In this document: positions 1,508 to 18,758 of the stretch, in pieces
Numbering within the stretch: the stretch's first letter is position 1
How the letters are laid out: every line of letters starts with the position of its first letter
Assembly (NCBI GenBank): GCA_029564595.1
Contig: JAKQPS010000071.1
Span: 1 to 18,758 of the forward strand
Direction of reading: 5' to 3'
Length of the DNA: 18,758 bases
Source of the DNA: a bacterium
GTDB taxonomy: Bacteria > UBP15 > UBA6099
Position numbers and translations under genes: made by a program
The notes under the pieces: model-generated
Told to the model about the DNA's origin: nothing
Database searches by the model: none
The model's input: only the letters and a program-made list of their open reading frames with translations

Positions 1508-1550
1508 CGCGCAAGCCGCCTCAGCGTGGCGGCGCGGCATCGGGAACTCA

Positions 1551-2564
1551 ATGAAAAAAGAAACCGGACGGGCAGTTGGCGGCATAAGCCGGAGAGAGTT
1601 CATAGCAGGAGCGGCGGCGCTGGGCGCGGCGGGCATGATAGGCGCGTTCGACGCGGCTCTCGCGGCTATGGCTCCAATCCCGGACGGCGCTCTGCCGGAA
1701 GTCCCGACTGTCTTCCCGGCGAACAAGGGCAGGTTCCGCATACTCGCCGTCACCGACCTTCATTTTCACCTCAATCACGCGGTGGACGCGCGCACTGTCG
1801 GCGATATCCGGGCGATGATTTCCAAATTCGAGCCGGACGTCGTGACGGCGCTGGGGGATGTGTGGCATGAGAACCCGGAGGGCAGGGGATTGGAGCGTTG
1901 CGCGTATGCCTGCGAACAGTTCGCGCAGATGGAAACGCCGTGGGCGTTCGTGTGGGGAAACCACGACAAGGCGGACGACTACGATGAAGCGCACAGGATG
2001 ATACGAAACGCGCCGCATTCGCTGTACCGGGGCGACGCGGCGGACGGCAATTACCGGATTCGGGTGTCGGCGGCGGAAGGCGGCCCGGCCCTATGGAACC
2101 TGATTATCCTCAATGATTCGCGAGGCGGAATGAGGCAGGAGCAGATAGATTGGTTCAACGCAGAAGCGGCGGCCATCCGAGCGGAAACGCCCGCTCCGCC
2201 CCCCGCGTTCGCTTTCTTCCACATCCCTCTCCCGCAGCACGATGATGTCGCTAAAGCGGGAAACGCGAAAGGCGTGAAGCTCGAAGAAGTCTGCCACGAG
2301 GGAGGCTCCCGGGACGCGCTCGGCGCGTTCCGCGATTCGGGTTTCGTCAAAGCCGCGTTCTGCGGACACGACCATCTGAATGATTACTATGGAGAAATGG
2401 AAGGCGTGCGGCTTCAGTACGCGCGCTCCACGGGCTATGAAGGCTCTGAAGACATTCTGGTTCCCAAAGGCGGAACGGTAATCGACATGAATCTTGAAAC
2501 CGGCGCGTTCAGGACGGCCACAGTGTTTGCAAACGGAAAGACATGGACGCCGAAGAATCTATAA
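1551..2564 (+). CDS. Tat-exported calcineurin-like metallophosphoesterase, copy 2
   Basis: This 337-residue protein is a tandem paralogue of the gene just upstream, with the same residue numbering almost throughout. The Tat motif SRREFI and all metal-ligand motifs are kept: TDLHFH, LGDVWHE, WGNHDK, FFHIP, CGHDH. The ATG at 1551 is chosen because the protein then aligns with copy 1 from its first residue (MKKETG against MKNDEK). An upstream in-frame ATG at 1458 would start inside the end of copy 1. The ribosome site is poor (GGGAACTC), so translation may partly depend on copy 1. DNA identity is high in places, for example around 950-1100 against 2010-2160, which points to recent duplication. 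Differences gather in the region after residue 225, which may alter specificity. Confidence 0.85.
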   Translation: MKKETGRAVGGISRREFIAGAAALGAAGMIGAFDAALAAMAPIPDGALPEVPTVFPANKGRFRILAVTDLHFHLNHAVDARTVGDIRAMISKFEPDVVTALGDVWHENPEGRGLERCAYACEQFAQMETPWAFVWGNHDKADDYDEAHRMIRNAPHSLYRGDAADGNYRIRVSAAEGGPALWNLIILNDSRGGMRQEQIDWFNAEAAAIRAETPAPPPAFAFFHIPLPQHDDVAKAGNAKGVKLEEVCHEGGSRDALGAFRDSGFVKAAFCGHDHLNDYYGEMEGVRLQYARSTGYEGSEDILVPKGGTVIDMNLETGAFRTATVFANGKTWTPKNL

Positions 2565-7749: not shown

Positions 7750-8061
7750 GTATCATGGCAAAAGATATTGGGAAAGGGTTTTCAAGGATATACGCGCTCC
7801 GAATTATCCCGGCTTCGGCGATAGAACCGACGAACTAAGGCGACTTTCATAGCGGCGAACTGCTTCTCGCCCCCCAAACGAGCTTGGGGCCGCCGCGTTT
7901 TTCGTTTTTGACACCAATATTCTATTCATTGATTTTCTCTTCCCTCCTTCTTTTTCGTGTCTCATTTTATCTCCGCGACGCGGGTGGATGAAATGTTTCC
8001 GGCGGGGGCTGAACACGGGCGAGGAAATATTATAGAATTAGCGAACGCGGAGAGGAAACAC

Positions 8062-9658: not shown

Positions 9659-11380
9659 ATGAAAAAAACGATTGTCATTCTGCTGGCGGCTATAGTCGTC
9701 GTCGGGGGCGGATTGTTCCTGAAGTCGAAACTCAAAAAACCCGCGATCGAAGAAGCAAAGATAAGGATAGTGGAAGCGTCGCGCGGAGACGTCACGCAGA
9801 TGGTGGAGGCGAGCGGCTCGGTGGTTTCCAATTTTGATGTCGAGATTAAGTGCAAGGCGAGCGGGGAGATAATCTCGCTGCCGTTTGACGCCAGCGACGT
9901 GGTGAAGAAGGGAGACCTTATCGCTGAGCTGGATCCGAGCGAGGAAGAGAGGAAAGTGGAGAAAGCGCGGGTTGCTCTGGATTCGTCTCGAGCGAGCCGG
10001 GACACCGCGAGGCAGAACCTGAGGATGGCCGAAAGGAATCTGGAGAATTCGCGGAGCCGGGCGGAAGTTACGCTTGAGGCCGCGAAATCCGCCGCCGAAG
10101 AGCGCGCCGCGAAAGCGGAGCGGGTCGCTCAACTTTATCAGAACAAACTCGCGAGCCGGGAGGAGCATGAAACGGCGAAAACGAGCGCGGCGCAGGCGCG
10201 CGCCGACCTCGAACGCGCTCATCTGACATTCAAAGACCTCGATGTGGAGGAAGCCGCGCTGGAAGTCAGCCGACAGAACCTCAAACGAGCAGAGGCGGAC
10301 GTTAAATCCTCGGAAATCAATCTCGACATAGCGATGCAGGGACTTGAGGACACGCGGGTGTACGCCCCCATGGACGGCGTCGTCACCGCCCGTTACGTGC
10401 AGACCGGACAGATTATCTCGTCCGGAACCACGAATGTCGGCGGAGGCACGTCGATAATGCAGGTGTCAGACCTGTCGCGGCTGTATGTGCTGGCGGCGGT
10501 GGACGAGAGCGATATAGGGCAGGTGCGAATCGGGCAGGAAGCCGAGATAACGGTTGACGCATATTCGGGCAGGGTTTTCAAGGGCAGGGTGGACAGGATA
10601 TCGCCGCGGGGCGAAATGGTGTCGAGCGTGGTGACGTTCGAGGTGAAGATTGAAGTGACGGAAGATGGAGGCATGAGCGCGGCGAGGGGTCGTTCGGGTG
10701 GCCGGAGGGATTCCGTCGCGGCGGGCAAGACGGTTCCGGAGGCTGACAAGGCGTCGCGCGCGGAGAATGCGGCGCCCGGCGAAGCGGCTGATTCCATTAA
10801 GTCGCCTGAAGGCAAAAAGAAGAGAGACGGCGCTGAAGGGCGCGGCGGCGCGGAGAGGGAAGAAGGCGGTTTCCGGCCCCCGCCTCCCGGCGGTCCCGGA
10901 TTCCCCGGCGGCGAGATGAGGCCGAGGGGAGAGGGCGGCGGTTTCGATCCGGCTGCGATGAGGCGGGACGCGCCTCAAGCGGAGGACGGCGGTCGCGTCG
11001 CGAAGAAGGACGCGGGAAAGGCTGCCTCCGAAAAAGGCGCGACGGCTCAAAGCGCGCTGTCAGGCCTGCTCAAACCGCAGATGACGGCGCATGTGAAGAT
11101 AATAATCGACGGAAGCAAAGACGTGGTTCTCGCTCCCTCGGACGCGGTGTGGAGAAAGGACGGCAAGTTCTTCGTGACTCTTGCGGCGGAAGGCGAGGAG
11201 CCGGCGGAGGGAGCCGAGCGAGAGGTGACAATCGGCATCTCCGACGGGACCAACACTGAAATCGCGTCCGGGCTGGAAGAGGGAGAAAAGTTGGCGGTCA
11301 AAGCGGCGGCTTCGTCGAACAAGTGGGGAGGCCGGAGCGGAGGAATGCCGCCGATGGGCGGCCCGATGATGAGGCGCTGA
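9659..11380 (+). CDS. macA: Efflux adaptor (MacA/HlyD-type membrane-fusion protein) with a long disordered insert
   Basis: This is the periplasmic adaptor of an ABC-type tripartite efflux pump. A membrane anchor (residues 4-21) is followed by a lipoyl half-motif around 58-93 (SGEIISLPFDASDVVKKGDLI). A coiled-coil hairpin rich in Ala, Glu and Arg runs over about 95-225. The second lipoyl half follows (YAPMDGVVTARYVQTGQII), then beta-barrel strands (DIGQVRIGQEAEITVD). Residues about 336-466 are an inserted low-complexity stretch of Gly, Pro, Arg, Glu and Lys. The usual L-x-P-x-M-T-A strand resumes at 470 (LLKPQMTAHVKIII), followed by the membrane-proximal domain and a Gly/Met-rich tail. The insert makes the protein 573 residues long against a usual 380-420. 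The ATG follows GGGGGAG. The ATPase starts 15 bases downstream. The gene symbol is by family resemblance. Confidence 0.85.
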   Translation: MKKTIVILLAAIVVVGGGLFLKSKLKKPAIEEAKIRIVEASRGDVTQMVEASGSVVSNFDVEIKCKASGEIISLPFDASDVVKKGDLIAELDPSEEERKVEKARVALDSSRASRDTARQNLRMAERNLENSRSRAEVTLEAAKSAAEERAAKAERVAQLYQNKLASREEHETAKTSAAQARADLERAHLTFKDLDVEEAALEVSRQNLKRAEADVKSSEINLDIAMQGLEDTRVYAPMDGVVTARYVQTGQIISSGTTNVGGGTSIMQVSDLSRLYVLAAVDESDIGQVRIGQEAEITVDAYSGRVFKGRVDRISPRGEMVSSVVTFEVKIEVTEDGGMSAARGRSGGRRDSVAAGKTVPEADKASRAENAAPGEAADSIKSPEGKKKRDGAEGRGGAEREEGGFRPPPPGGPGFPGGEMRPRGEGGGFDPAAMRRDAPQAEDGGRVAKKDAGKAASEKGATAQSALSGLLKPQMTAHVKIIIDGSKDVVLAPSDAVWRKDGKFFVTLAAEGEEPAEGAEREVTIGISDGTNTEIASGLEEGEKLAVKAAASSNKWGGRSGGMPPMGGPMMRR

Positions 11381-14737: not shown

Positions 14738-14835
14738 CCGGTTTTTTCGCGAGAAAAAACCGGAAAATCGCCCCGGTTCGTCGGTTCTGTCGCCAAATCC
14801 GGGTTGAACCCGAATCCGTCATTAGGATTCGGGTT
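14738..14835. repeat. Extragenic double hairpin, most complete copy
   Basis: Hairpin one is a perfect 11-bp stem (CCGGTTTTTTC with GAAAAAACCGG) closed by a GCGA tetraloop (14738-14763). A 43-base linker (14764-14806) follows. Hairpin two is a perfect 11-bp stem (AACCCGAATCC with GGATTCGGGTT) around the loop GTCATTA (14807-14835). The same hairpins occur at 181-242 and the middle segment at 354-400. The element begins eight bases after the TolC-like stop codon and may end the operon transcript, although no T-tract follows either stem. Confidence 0.7.
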
Positions 14836-14926
14836 AAATAATGCCGGTAGCGGAACAGCTTCTCGCGCCGTCATTCTCGAGCAAGAGGGAATTCATCATC
14901 AGAGATAGAAGCACATCTCGCATTCC

Positions 14927-14940: not shown

Positions 14941-15095
14941 AAAAACACCCCGGCCAACAACACGCGTCGCGGCAACGACTCGCGCGCGCCTCTCGCCTCG
15001 GCTCATCCAGCGTTTATGCTCAAACGTTTTTAATGGAAATCGGCAGTAGGTGAGAGTGGATGATTTCTGCGAAAACAAATGGAATATGCAGTTGG

Positions 15096-15109
15096 ACATA
15101 TCGATATGT
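15096..15109. promoter_or_regulatory. Perfect 14-bp palindrome upstream of the membrane-protein gene
   Basis: ACATATCGATATGT is its own reverse complement and lies about 135 bases upstream of the candidate -10 of the next gene. It could be an operator; chance palindromes are more likely in A/T-rich DNA. Confidence 0.25.
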
Positions 15110-15240
15110 TCCCATTAGAACCATGACCACATTGCCTTTCCTATTATAAATCCGATTCATTCACCCAATTCCATATAATCCTTCAGTCACTGCGCCTAAA
15201 AAATAAAACCTAAAGTCTTATCTAAATCTCAATGGCAATA

Positions 15241-15249
15241 TGATACAAT
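15241..15249 (+). promoter_or_regulatory. Candidate extended -10 promoter
   Basis: TGATACAAT fits an extended -10 (TGnTAnAAT). No good -35 is seen at normal spacing, which an extended -10 can tolerate. It would give a leader of about 50 bases before the ATG at 15308. Confidence 0.4.
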
Positions 15250-15307
15250 CTCTTAAGTCAATCATATTGTTGCTTCGAAGCTTTCTGTAAACGCAAGGAG
15301 GATAGGC

Positions 15308-16792
15308 ATGAGACGAGTAAGACAAATATCGTTGTGGATGCTTCTTATTTTGCTGTTCTCCACCTCATGCTACGCGCTAAAGGAGAGGGATGTATGGGAG
15401 GACAAAGGTTCCTTCTGGAACGGGCGCGTATGGTTTGGAGTGCGTTCCCATGATGGTGGCGAGCCTGAAAAGAGCGTTACATGGATGCTATATAGCGTTG
15501 AGCCGGGTAGTGAAGAGAAACCTAGGGTAGAGGCAGGTGTGTCTATTCCACTGGAGCTTTTCTGGCTTTTCGACGGTGAAGACAGGCTTTGGGTAATTTC
15601 GGCAGAATCGGTGGGCTACTATAAAGATGGTCAACTCACATTTGTTGATATGAAGAATAAGTTGACGGATATTACAAAGCCTTTTCTGTATAATGGCAGG
15701 CCAGCAGTTGTGGATAACGATGGCTATTCACTTACTTTGTATACACTTGGAGAAAATGAATGGACTAAAGGCGAGTCATTCACGGTTAAACATAATCGCC
15801 CGGATAAACATATCTGGTGGTATATGGAAGTCATCGCTGACCAAGATATATTGCACTTGTTTCTACAGAATAAGGACGGCTTAATATATCATTTTGAAGG
15901 TATCCCAACAGGAGAATACGAGGATGTAACGCAGTGGGAATTGCTGGCCAGAATGGGCGGATATTGCTGTGGCGGATACTGGGCCAGTGTCATATTCAAA
16001 GATCAAGTGACTATATTTTATCCTGTGGGTGGTCTGTTGGCTCACATAGAGGGGTTCAAACTGGTAGAGAACAAGTGGAAACGTTTTTTCAAGCCCAAAG
16101 CAAGCATATATGCCACCAACTGTTACGGAGTCTATCCGACAGGACAGAATGATGATTTCCTGCTGTTGCATGATTCAGAAAAAGGCTGGCTGGAAGCAAT
16201 AACATTTCAAAATGGTGAAGAAATTTCAAGAACTATGCTGGGTTCTAAACTTACTCTGTATAATCTGTCGATTAAAATAATTGCCTATGCTATACTGATA
16301 GTACCCGTTGTTCTTTTGATATTTTTCTTCGTCAGGTTTTTCAGGAACCCATTTAAATTATCCAGATTTGCGCTCACCCGCTTCCACGAAACAAAAGAAT
16401 ATCCGAGAGAGAAGGTTGACGTTGCGGCAATAATGAACGCAGAGTTTAAGAAGATCAAAGGCCTTAATGTGAAAAAGTGGCCTGAGAAGAACGCAATATC
16501 AGTCCGGCATAGTTTCTTCCAGAGTTCGGCAAACTTTGGATTCACTCCGCTAATCCCGGCGATTATCGAGTTTGAGGAAGCGGGTAGAGTTGTAAAAGTT
16601 ACAATGACAGTAAAGATGCCGTTGACTATGGTTATCCTGTTTGTTTTGATGATTCTGTTGATATGTATTTTCCTTCCGTTCGCGATATGGGCTTGGAGTT
16701 CAACATCTAAAAACAAGTGCTCTCAGTTCTTCCACCTGTTTTTAGTATCACTTGGAATTGAAGAGGCTGTGGATGCAAATGAATTGATTTAA
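15308..16792 (+). CDS. Unrecognised membrane protein with extracytoplasmic beta-rich domain, paralogue A
   Basis: I do not recognise this 494-residue protein. It has a signal peptide (MLLILLFSTSCYA, likely cut after CYA) and an extracytoplasmic domain to about residue 318. That domain consists of repeated beta strands ending in aromatic or Gly-turn motifs (WNGRVWFG, RLWVISAE, GYYKDG, ILHLFLQNKDGLIYHF, IEGFKLVENKWKRF), suggesting a beta-propeller-like fold. A membrane helix (322-345) and a basic cytosolic domain of about 90 residues (NPFKLSRFALTRFHETKEYP...) follow. One more helix (about 440-463) precedes the conserved tail FFHLFLVSLGIEE. Its paralogue C lies convergent downstream. Codon use is much richer in A/T than in the efflux operon. 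The ribosome site is AAGGAGG, six bases before the ATG. The layout suggests a sensor or surface-sensing protein, which is inference. Confidence 0.75.
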   Translation: MRRVRQISLWMLLILLFSTSCYALKERDVWEDKGSFWNGRVWFGVRSHDGGEPEKSVTWMLYSVEPGSEEKPRVEAGVSIPLELFWLFDGEDRLWVISAESVGYYKDGQLTFVDMKNKLTDITKPFLYNGRPAVVDNDGYSLTLYTLGENEWTKGESFTVKHNRPDKHIWWYMEVIADQDILHLFLQNKDGLIYHFEGIPTGEYEDVTQWELLARMGGYCCGGYWASVIFKDQVTIFYPVGGLLAHIEGFKLVENKWKRFFKPKASIYATNCYGVYPTGQNDDFLLLHDSEKGWLEAITFQNGEEISRTMLGSKLTLYNLSIKIIAYAILIVPVVLLIFFFVRFFRNPFKLSRFALTRFHETKEYPREKVDVAAIMNAEFKKIKGLNVKKWPEKNAISVRHSFFQSSANFGFTPLIPAIIEFEEAGRVVKVTMTVKMPLTMVILFVLMILLICIFLPFAIWAWSSTSKNKCSQFFHLFLVSLGIEEAVDANELI

Positions 16793-16797
16793 ATACA

Positions 16798-16905
16798 ATG
16801 CTCAAAAGAATAGTGGCGAATCTTCTTGCGCTCGTGTTATTATTAGCTCTGCTGTAGTCTCCTGTTTTGGGGTGAAGAGATGTTTGACCTGATGCTGGTC
16901 TAACT
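16798..16905 (+). pseudogene. Decayed 3' end of a third copy of the membrane-protein family
   Basis: The DNA between the two convergent paralogues reads MLKRIVANLLALVLLLALL then a stop, a hydrophobic helix without a ribosome site. About 20 bases further, in another frame, it reads MFDLMLV, stop, LG and, after a one-base shift, IQEQ. This matches the C-terminal tails of the neighbours, FFDLILVYFGVEE (paralogue C) and FFHLFLVSLGIEE (paralogue A), in order and spacing after a membrane helix. Stops and frame changes show it is not expressed as a protein. It is on the same strand as paralogue A and starts five bases after its stop. Confidence 0.45.
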
Positions 16906-16955
16906 GGGATTCAGGAACAGCCGAAGGCACACATACTGGTTTTGAAAGCAGCCGC

Positions 16956-18482
16956 TTATAATAATTTTTCGATTTCTTTTTTTTCTTCGACTCCAAAATA
17001 TACAAGGATAAGATCAAAAAACTCTTTGAATTGTTTTTTCCCCATTCTGACCTGAAATAATAATGCTACTGGAACTACAACGAAGAACATCATAAGTGTG
17101 ATATAAACAAGCATGTTGCCCTTTGAATCTATGCCATATGTATTTGATAGAAGCGGTATAAACACAAGAAAAAGACTCAAAAATATCAACAGAAGAAAAT
17201 TAGGGAGCTTTGAAACAAGTTTGATTTTTACCTTGCCTGCTGACTCCTCAAAATACATGATTGATAGTGAAATGGCCTTCATCCCGCCACCCGGAGTTAA
17301 TCGCTGCGAAAATTTCGGGCGTATTGTTAAGGCTTTGTGTTCCGGACGAGGCTTTATTACATAGGATTTGGTCTTGGAGTAATCGCGTGACATTATATCG
17401 TGGACATTTACTTCGGCTATAGGATACTCCCTTGCTTCCGAATACTGCGTGATGGCATACCTGTAAGCCCAGAATGGATTCAACATTATCACGACAAGTC
17501 CGCCGATGAGTATGAAAATGAGCAGCAGTTCGAAGAACAGCATTGCCCCCAGCACCGAAACCTCTCCGATTCTGAAGGATGATACAACTTTGTCGCCATC
17601 AACTACAATGCCCTTAGCCCTATACATAGTCTCATGAAACACTAAAAATTTATTTCCCACTATTGGGAAAACCCCAAAACTTCTCTCTCCTGCGAATATC
17701 GAGTTGGCGCTTCTATAAATATTCTCCCATCCATTCTCTGTTAAAACAAAACCTTCTATCCCACCCCATAAGAAACTCCCAACACTATAAAAAACGCTAG
17801 GTTTGCCGCCAATGTCAGCAGTTACCCAATATCCGCTATAATCTGTGACAGGTTCCCACTTTTTACATTCGGCATGTTCCTCGTCTGGTATTCCTATGTG
17901 ATGATATATACCCCCCTTATTGCTCAGGAATAAATGTAAATCATCACCTATCACGATAGTTTCGAGAAACTCATCCGCATCATCATCATTATCGTGAACG
18001 AGTTTGAAGGAACTCAATTCCTGCCAAGCATCTTCACTGAAAGATTTCAAGATACAGTCTTTGCTCTTATGTTCAATTACAGTCGGGAATCCATGAAATA
18101 TAAACGGTCTGGTAAAATCAGCAGGCATTTCATCCGTTTCAACTTGCAGATATTTTTCCCCGTTGAAATAACCCGTGGTTTCATCGGAAATTAGCCATAA
18201 TCTGTCAGTATCGCCGACCATCCAGAAGCTTCTAACGGGAAGTTTGATCTGAAACTCAAGTCGGGGAGGTTCCTTTGAGTTAATATCATAACTGTAAATC
18301 TTGTGGCCCCTTTCGCACAACAAACCCTCACACTTCTTAGGCATCCGTTCAGAAAACCAGAATCGGTCATTCCAGTATGCCGCTCTGTCTGTGTTTATCG
18401 TGTACAATGCTGAGAAGGAGCATTTGGGGGCTAGTAGGATAATAACGGAGACAACAATAATTGTTCGTATCGGCGTTTTCAT
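16956..18482 (-). CDS. Unrecognised membrane protein with extracytoplasmic beta-rich domain, paralogue C
   Basis: This 508-residue protein is a paralogue of the + strand gene at 15308. Shared features, in order, include YWNDRFWF, RLWLISDE, GYFNGEK, DFTRPFIFHGFPTV, LHLFLSNKGGIYH, IEGFVLTENGW, FGVFPIVGNKFLVFHE, AITQYSEAREYP and FFDLILVYFGVEE. It has a signal peptide (IRTIIVVSVIILLAP, SFSA), an extracytoplasmic beta-rich domain to about 308, then membrane helix 1 (310-334). A cytosolic domain of about 90 residues follows, then helices 2 (427-446) and 3 (457-477), placing the charged tail in the cytosol. The start at 18482 is chosen because GGGAGGGGA precedes it, while the ATG 27 bases upstream has no ribosome site. 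The function is unknown. The DNA is A+T-rich. Confidence 0.75.
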   Translation of the reverse strand: MKTPIRTIIVVSVIILLAPKCSFSALYTINTDRAAYWNDRFWFSERMPKKCEGLLCERGHKIYSYDINSKEPPRLEFQIKLPVRSFWMVGDTDRLWLISDETTGYFNGEKYLQVETDEMPADFTRPFIFHGFPTVIEHKSKDCILKSFSEDAWQELSSFKLVHDNDDDADEFLETIVIGDDLHLFLSNKGGIYHHIGIPDEEHAECKKWEPVTDYSGYWVTADIGGKPSVFYSVGSFLWGGIEGFVLTENGWENIYRSANSIFAGERSFGVFPIVGNKFLVFHETMYRAKGIVVDGDKVVSSFRIGEVSVLGAMLFFELLLIFILIGGLVVIMLNPFWAYRYAITQYSEAREYPIAEVNVHDIMSRDYSKTKSYVIKPRPEHKALTIRPKFSQRLTPGGGMKAISLSIMYFEESAGKVKIKLVSKLPNFLLLIFLSLFLVFIPLLSNTYGIDSKGNMLVYITLMMFFVVVPVALLFQVRMGKKQFKEFFDLILVYFGVEEKKEIEKLL

Positions 18483-18534
18483 TCCCCTCCCGCATATACG
18501 ATAACTCATTCACTACCGATATGGCCATGTTAAT

Positions 18535-18562
18535 ATTTTAATTACCTATCATCATATGTTAA
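18535..18562 (-). promoter_or_regulatory. Candidate promoter for paralogue C
   Basis: On the minus strand, TTAACA (18562-18557) and TAAAAT (18540-18535) are separated by 16 bases, about 53 bases upstream of the ATG at 18482. The heptamer ATGTTAA occurs three times on the + strand (18527, 18556, 18595), overlapping or flanking this promoter, and might be a regulator site. Confidence 0.4.
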
Positions 18563-18758
18563 CACGATAACTATTAAAAGCATACTCCAACACCATGTTA
18601 AAAGCTTCTTTGCAAATCAATGCTGTTCAATCAAGCGACCTCCAGAGATAGTTGCGTAAAAGCGGGCGGTGGAAAAGGTTCTTTCCATTTTTCGTGAAGC
18701 AGATACTGGAGGGGGTGGCTCGAGAATATATTCAACTGAATGAGGGACAAGATACGCG
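18563..18758. other. Right-edge region, possible decayed transposase start
   Basis: No intact gene is supported. On the + strand a frame near 18669 reads VEKVLSIFREADTGGG, resembling the first helix of IS3-type OrfA transposases (I-L-R-E-A-x-x-G). After a one-base shift it reads GVAREYIQLNEG, resembling the second helix. Composition becomes richer in G+C again. The window ends before this can be tested. Confidence 0.2.

Follow-up and report, generated by a model that had tools for sequence, protein, structure and literature searches.

Beta-propellers are used alike for binding, catalysis and scaffolding; among the described six-bladed forms, the AAL-type fucose lectins (AAL, AFL, AofleA) are soluble proteins with no membrane part. 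RDD domains (PF06271) are membrane domains found in a reported Na+(Li+,K+)/H+ antiporter of Halobacillus and in SppI, which inhibits the membrane protease SppA (PMC7568657). Here we describe a laterally transferred pair of convergent, paralogous genes, A and B, that fall outside known families and whose products are predicted to be membrane proteins with an outer six-bladed propeller, comparable in fold to the AAL-type lectins. They come from the GTDB phylum UBP15 (Candidatus Lagoxiota), which comprises six genomes originating from a black smoker, from digester sludge and from wastewater (PMC11382960). Their architecture is new and unnamed, built of known parts, and the accessory genome of this poorly known candidate phylum gains with it a membrane family without a name.

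The convergent gene pair and the layout of its products

The stretch of DNA analyzed (the window, 18,758 bp) corresponds to all of contig C33, from a metagenome-assembled genome of 4.4 Mb in which A and B are the only two copies found. Both are intact reading frames preceded by a Shine-Dalgarno sequence, and their stops lie 163 bp apart. For gene B the start at 18482 is favored over the mechanical ORF start at 18509 because of its GGGAGG ribosome-binding site. Scans for consensus promoters and terminators gave results no better than shuffles. The features of the pair are:

15308-16792, + strand: gene A, 494 aa, from ATG 15308 to stop 16792, with AAGGAGG at 15295-15301
15410-16246, + strand: predicted six-bladed beta-propeller of A, extracytoplasmic, residues 35-313 (model, fold search)
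16277-16333, + strand: membrane helix of A, residues 324-342 (hydropathy; model helix 317-346)
16343-16618, + strand: cytosolic domain of A, residues 346-437 (alignment; low-confidence model)
16622-16705, + strand: second hydrophobic helix of A, residues 439-466 (hydropathy, model)
16706-16789, + strand: C-terminal tail of A, residues 467-494, conserved with B
16874-16924, + strand: possible tail remnant of a third copy, between the stops of A and B (suggestive only)
16956-18482, - strand: gene B, 508 aa, from ATG 18482 to stop 16956, with GGGAGG upstream
17574-18380, - strand: homolog in B of the predicted propeller of A, residues ~35-303 (alignment; fold predicted for A only)
17487-17543, - strand: membrane helix of B, residues 314-332 (hydropathy)
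17205-17483, - strand: cytosolic domain of B, residues 334-426, weakly START-like (model, fold search)
17043-17201, - strand: membrane hairpin of B, two helices, residues ~428-480 (hydropathy, module model)
16959-17042, - strand: C-terminal tail of B, residues 481-508, conserved with A

The two proteins align from end to end (28% identity, 209 bits, BLASTP E 5e-66), with collinear motifs running from WN-R-WF through to the C-terminal FF-L-LV--G-EE. The preliminary description of this DNA had recognized a tail-to-tail pair of paralogs with short motifs matching in order and a conserved C-terminal tail, all of which the alignment bears out; the failure to align that it had named as evidence against such a pair is absent. 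It had also placed in each product a beta-rich outer domain, which we find at residues ~35-313, and a cytosolic domain of ~90 residues, as we too find, and it had counted a single membrane helix, which is too few. The full order is an N-terminal signal/anchor, the beta domain, a helix, the cytosolic domain, one (A) or two (B) further helices and the tail. The hydrophobic segments beyond the signal/anchor lie at residues ~324-342 and 439-466 in A (hydropathy and model), and at ~314-332, 428-450 and 458-480 in B (hydropathy and module model). A 25-residue gap in the alignment of the second helix set takes out one helix from A, so that the C-terminal tails of A and B may sit on opposite sides of the membrane. 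The order of signal/anchor, outer domain, helix and a basic segment after the first helix (RFFRNPFKLSR in A) fits a predicted outside-to-inside topology. A candidate lipobox at the shared C21 was rejected by eye, the residues there being STSC in A and APKC in B.

The short translated stretch between the two stops, EEMFDLMLV*LGFRNSR, was picked after looking; it scores 37 against the A/B tails, where dinucleotide shuffles score 21.8 +- 3.1 (0/1000), and its score against the whole proteins is not significant (73/500 shuffles). This resemblance is suggestive, and only that, of a leftover from the tail of a third paralog.

Searches with the whole proteins and with their separate domains recovered no usable family match in Pfam, NCBIfam, PADLOC, PHROGs or the PDB, so the earlier statement that no named family has this layout holds at the level of sequence, and no match of a whole protein to a characterized family, which would have spoken against it, was obtained. 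Stray matches to an S1 RNA-binding domain (E 0.09), DUF2304 (E 0.06), GH16 chains (E 0.04) and phrog_8120 (E 0.02) were set aside as weak or short. Among known anti-phage defense families, PADLOC returned 0 at E up to 1, and no relatives were found among viral contigs, phages and plasmids.

The predicted outer propeller and the inner module

We modeled A with AlphaFold2 from a shallow, five-row alignment, at a mean pLDDT of 63 across the whole protein. In the model, residues 35-313 form 24 strands arranged as six sets of four, with ten-residue blocks of the outer domain mostly at pLDDT 67-87 and some loop blocks down to ~50. Its best structural matches are propellers (Foldseek E 5e-7), with overall identities of 6-12% and a top match to 7c39_A (Z 18.2, rmsd 4.1 over 271 residues). 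That the ectodomain of A folds as a six-bladed beta-propeller is thus well supported as a prediction; in B and in the relatives described below the same fold rests on homology to A. The fold search on this ectodomain proposed in the preliminary description has given a predicted fold, and that fold does not point to any one ligand. Moreover, as propellers have many roles, the fold alone does not establish a receptor.

When one genome per bacterial or archaeal species was scanned for a pattern of two motifs, which would miss any relative lacking them, relatives turned up only in UBA6099, the sister species, and in one Planctomycetota genome. Among 392 Planctomycetota genomes a profile search added a second relative, and a similar search of 386 relatives' genomes outside that phylum found none besides the sister species. 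The two unnamed Planctomycetota proteins are:

L023:6940-8604 of RA.bin114: propeller-RDD protein, propeller E 5e-21
L027:1477-3156 of G269: propeller-RDD protein, propeller E 2e-25

Both share with A and B the N-terminal anchor, the homologous propeller and the next membrane helix; they differ in ending with an RDD domain (PF06271, E 9.9e-20 in L023; L027 aligns with L023 from end to end through this domain, E 7e-79), in being G+C-rich, and in being single genes with no convergent partner seen. The preliminary description had asked whether homologs always occur in clusters; these do not. Since the same propeller and helix precede an RDD domain in Planctomycetota, the propeller is an independent, swappable outer module, reused ahead of a different membrane domain in another phylum. 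We found nothing relevant in the literature consulted on RDD domains combined with propellers.

The RDD domain that sits behind this propeller in Planctomycetota is missing from A and B: neither gives a match to PF06271, and their inner module shows no resemblance to the RDD part of the Planctomycetota proteins. For the C-terminal module shared by A and B there was no confident match anywhere else in the 386 genomes; outside the pair the matches reached no better than E 1e-3 to 1e-2 and lay for the most part on hydrophobic stretches, and we take them as noise. Modeled alone, the inner module of B (mean pLDDT 53.6) matches mainly START/Bet v 1-like folds (Z 5-6.5, Foldseek E > 0.05, for this low-confidence model). 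The likeness of its cytosolic strands and helix to these helix-grip domains is weak and below the level of relationship, and the fold in B would be split by membrane helices before the last helix; a START/Bet v 1-like inner module is accordingly offered as a lead, not as a finding. If the module were START-like, the proteins would show an unusual coupling of binding outside to a lipid-type pocket inside. A bolder reading, which we consider unlikely, would see here a transmembrane receptor of new architecture, made up of an outer six-bladed propeller reused across phyla, one helix and a START-like cytosolic domain split by membrane helices, its genes having travelled laterally as a convergent pair.

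Proposed role of the pair

We tentatively favor the view that A and B act as a membrane-anchored propeller receptor or scaffold coupled to the inner module. Under this proposal they would be accessory, horizontally transferred inner-membrane proteins displaying the predicted propeller on the outer face of the membrane, where it would most likely bind a ligand, perhaps a glycan, a peptide or another envelope protein. A membrane helix would link the propeller to the inner module, comprising the small cytosolic domain and one or two helices, and this module might react to, or be positioned by, binding outside. Against a receptor stand the lack in A and B of a recognizable output domain or a conserved partner gene, and the unequal number of membrane helices in the two proteins. 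Of the earlier suggestion of a signaling or surface-sensing family, the order of outside domain, helix and inside domain stands, reinforced by the predicted propeller and the positively charged segment; signaling itself is a conjecture, given that no known output domain is present.

The Planctomycetota proteins raise an alternative, which we also judge unlikely, namely that the propeller caps a small membrane domain, where it captures a substrate or acts as a gate, making the proteins transport-related or regulatory accessories whose membrane part has been swapped in UBP15. The occurrence of the same propeller and helix ahead of RDD domains in L023 and L027, and the reported antiporter and SppI among RDD proteins (PMC7568657), would agree with this; however, the inner module of A and B is not RDD-like, and a transporter would be expected to have more than two or three helices.

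A role for the pair as mobile immunity or exclusion proteins, with the outer propeller blocking or capturing a toxin, a bacteriocin or a phage component, appears distinctly unlikely, although A and B are mobile, patchily distributed, A+T-rich cargo. A+T-rich islands recur in the sampled stretches of the window's genome (part of contig C104 reads N). The ones we looked into encode a DNA methyltransferase whose neighbor weakly matches a nuclease family, a PIN/EVE-like protein, and unrecognized membrane or secreted proteins; another site in the genus holds a ParE/Phd-type module. This content speaks for an immunity role, but accessory islands hold genes of every sort, no toxin or defense gene adjoins A and B, and PADLOC gave no match to either.

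Still less probable is that the proteins are membrane-anchored lectins whose propeller binds fucose-like sugars. The AAL-type lectins AofleA, AFL and AAL do rank at the top of the fold matches (Z 16-18 over 240-274 residues); yet their identity to A is only 6-10%, and sialidases (Z ~16) and Kelch propellers (Z ~15), which together span Z ~15-17, score nearly as well. Furthermore, no lectin profile matched A or B: in Pfam neither the whole proteins nor the ectodomains matched anything to E 10, and an ectodomain profile matched no sequence in the PDB. Sialidases and Kelch proteins similarly share the propeller fold but no family profile match with A and B, and the Asp-box repeats of sialidases (SxDxGxxW) number 0 in A, B, L023 and L027.

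Lateral transfer of the block

The pair lies within an A+T-rich block that also occurs, at another locus, in the sister species UBA6099:

15026-18617, no strand: transferred block with the whole convergent pair, 41% G+C, 97.6% identical to L006 13340-9747 of UBA6099

This 3.6-kb block has 41.0% G+C vs ~55% for the genome, and GC3 is 0.42-0.46 in A and B vs 0.71-0.74 in the adjoining tolC and permease genes. In the window it follows tolC, whereas in UBA6099 its neighbors are a SnoaL-like gene on one side and yifB on the other, with different flanks at the two loci. In the congener G003, tolC is followed by MGMT and uvrC, an order that UBA6099 shares beyond a toxin-antitoxin insert; in the window's genome the MGMT and uvrC genes are on another contig, adjoining other DNA. 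Between the two species, dS (NG86) is 0.040 for A and 0.035 for B. Six host genes (tolC, yifB, a 678-aa gene and the permease, ATPase and SnoaL-like genes) give 0.14-0.25. The other locus in the sister species, together with a dS ~5 times below that of host genes, directly supports acquisition of the block and its recent movement between sister species, as the preliminary description had suspected from the A+T-rich island; the comparison is between metagenome assemblies for both genomes. A and B offer a clear example of two genes that moved together as one unit. The dN/dS values of A (0.25) and B (0.39) indicate that both are under constraint. Five other members of the phylum, two of them congeners, lack the pair, although some of their assemblies are incomplete.

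It is highly improbable that A and B are ordinary, vertically inherited envelope genes whose low G+C is a local peculiarity of composition and whose second locus reflects rearrangement or misassembly, for although both are intact, full-length and under purifying selection, and gene order in the genus is rearranged near dispersed repeats, the low dS, the absences and the differing flanks at both loci argue against it.

As to how the transferred block moves, its only long reading frames are A and B, no transposase or integrase is encoded within it, and no pair of terminal inverted repeats was found at its ends; it might, for instance, be exchanged by way of conserved genes on its flanks. Downstream of the SnoaL-like gene, three congeners each carry an A+T-rich insert of their own:

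L006 9600-13870 (UBA6099): the pair
L018 2375-3720 (G003): 258-aa secreted orphan
L021 3250-4220 (G001): UPF0489-like ORF

Given the varied A+T-rich cargo at such sites, the pair is typical accessory cargo, whose function is not told by its setting. Between tolC and MGMT, UBA6099 carries a gene pair for a ParE-type toxin and a Phd/YefM antitoxin (L012 10084-10604, - strand), and the corresponding gap in G003 is without an insert. A dispersed intergenic repeat of up to ~240 bp is present in dozens of copies per genome (G000, G001, G003), with fragments near break points of gene order between species:

214-400, 7804-7866 and 14763-14839 of the window: dispersed repeat
L006 13650-13885: dispersed repeat

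Elsewhere in the window, tandem genes at 488-1507 and ~1545-2564 (+ strand) encode Tat-signal calcineurin-like phosphoesterases (PF00149, E 9e-12 and 1e-10), whose close similarity suggests a recent duplication. The MacA-like adaptor of an ABC export operon (9659-11380, + strand) contains a long low-complexity stretch, with abundant G, P, R and E, at residues ~325-465, and beyond the block, at 18652-18758 (+ strand), another frame (LRKSGRWKRFFPFFVKQILEG...) seems to begin and runs off the end of the contig.
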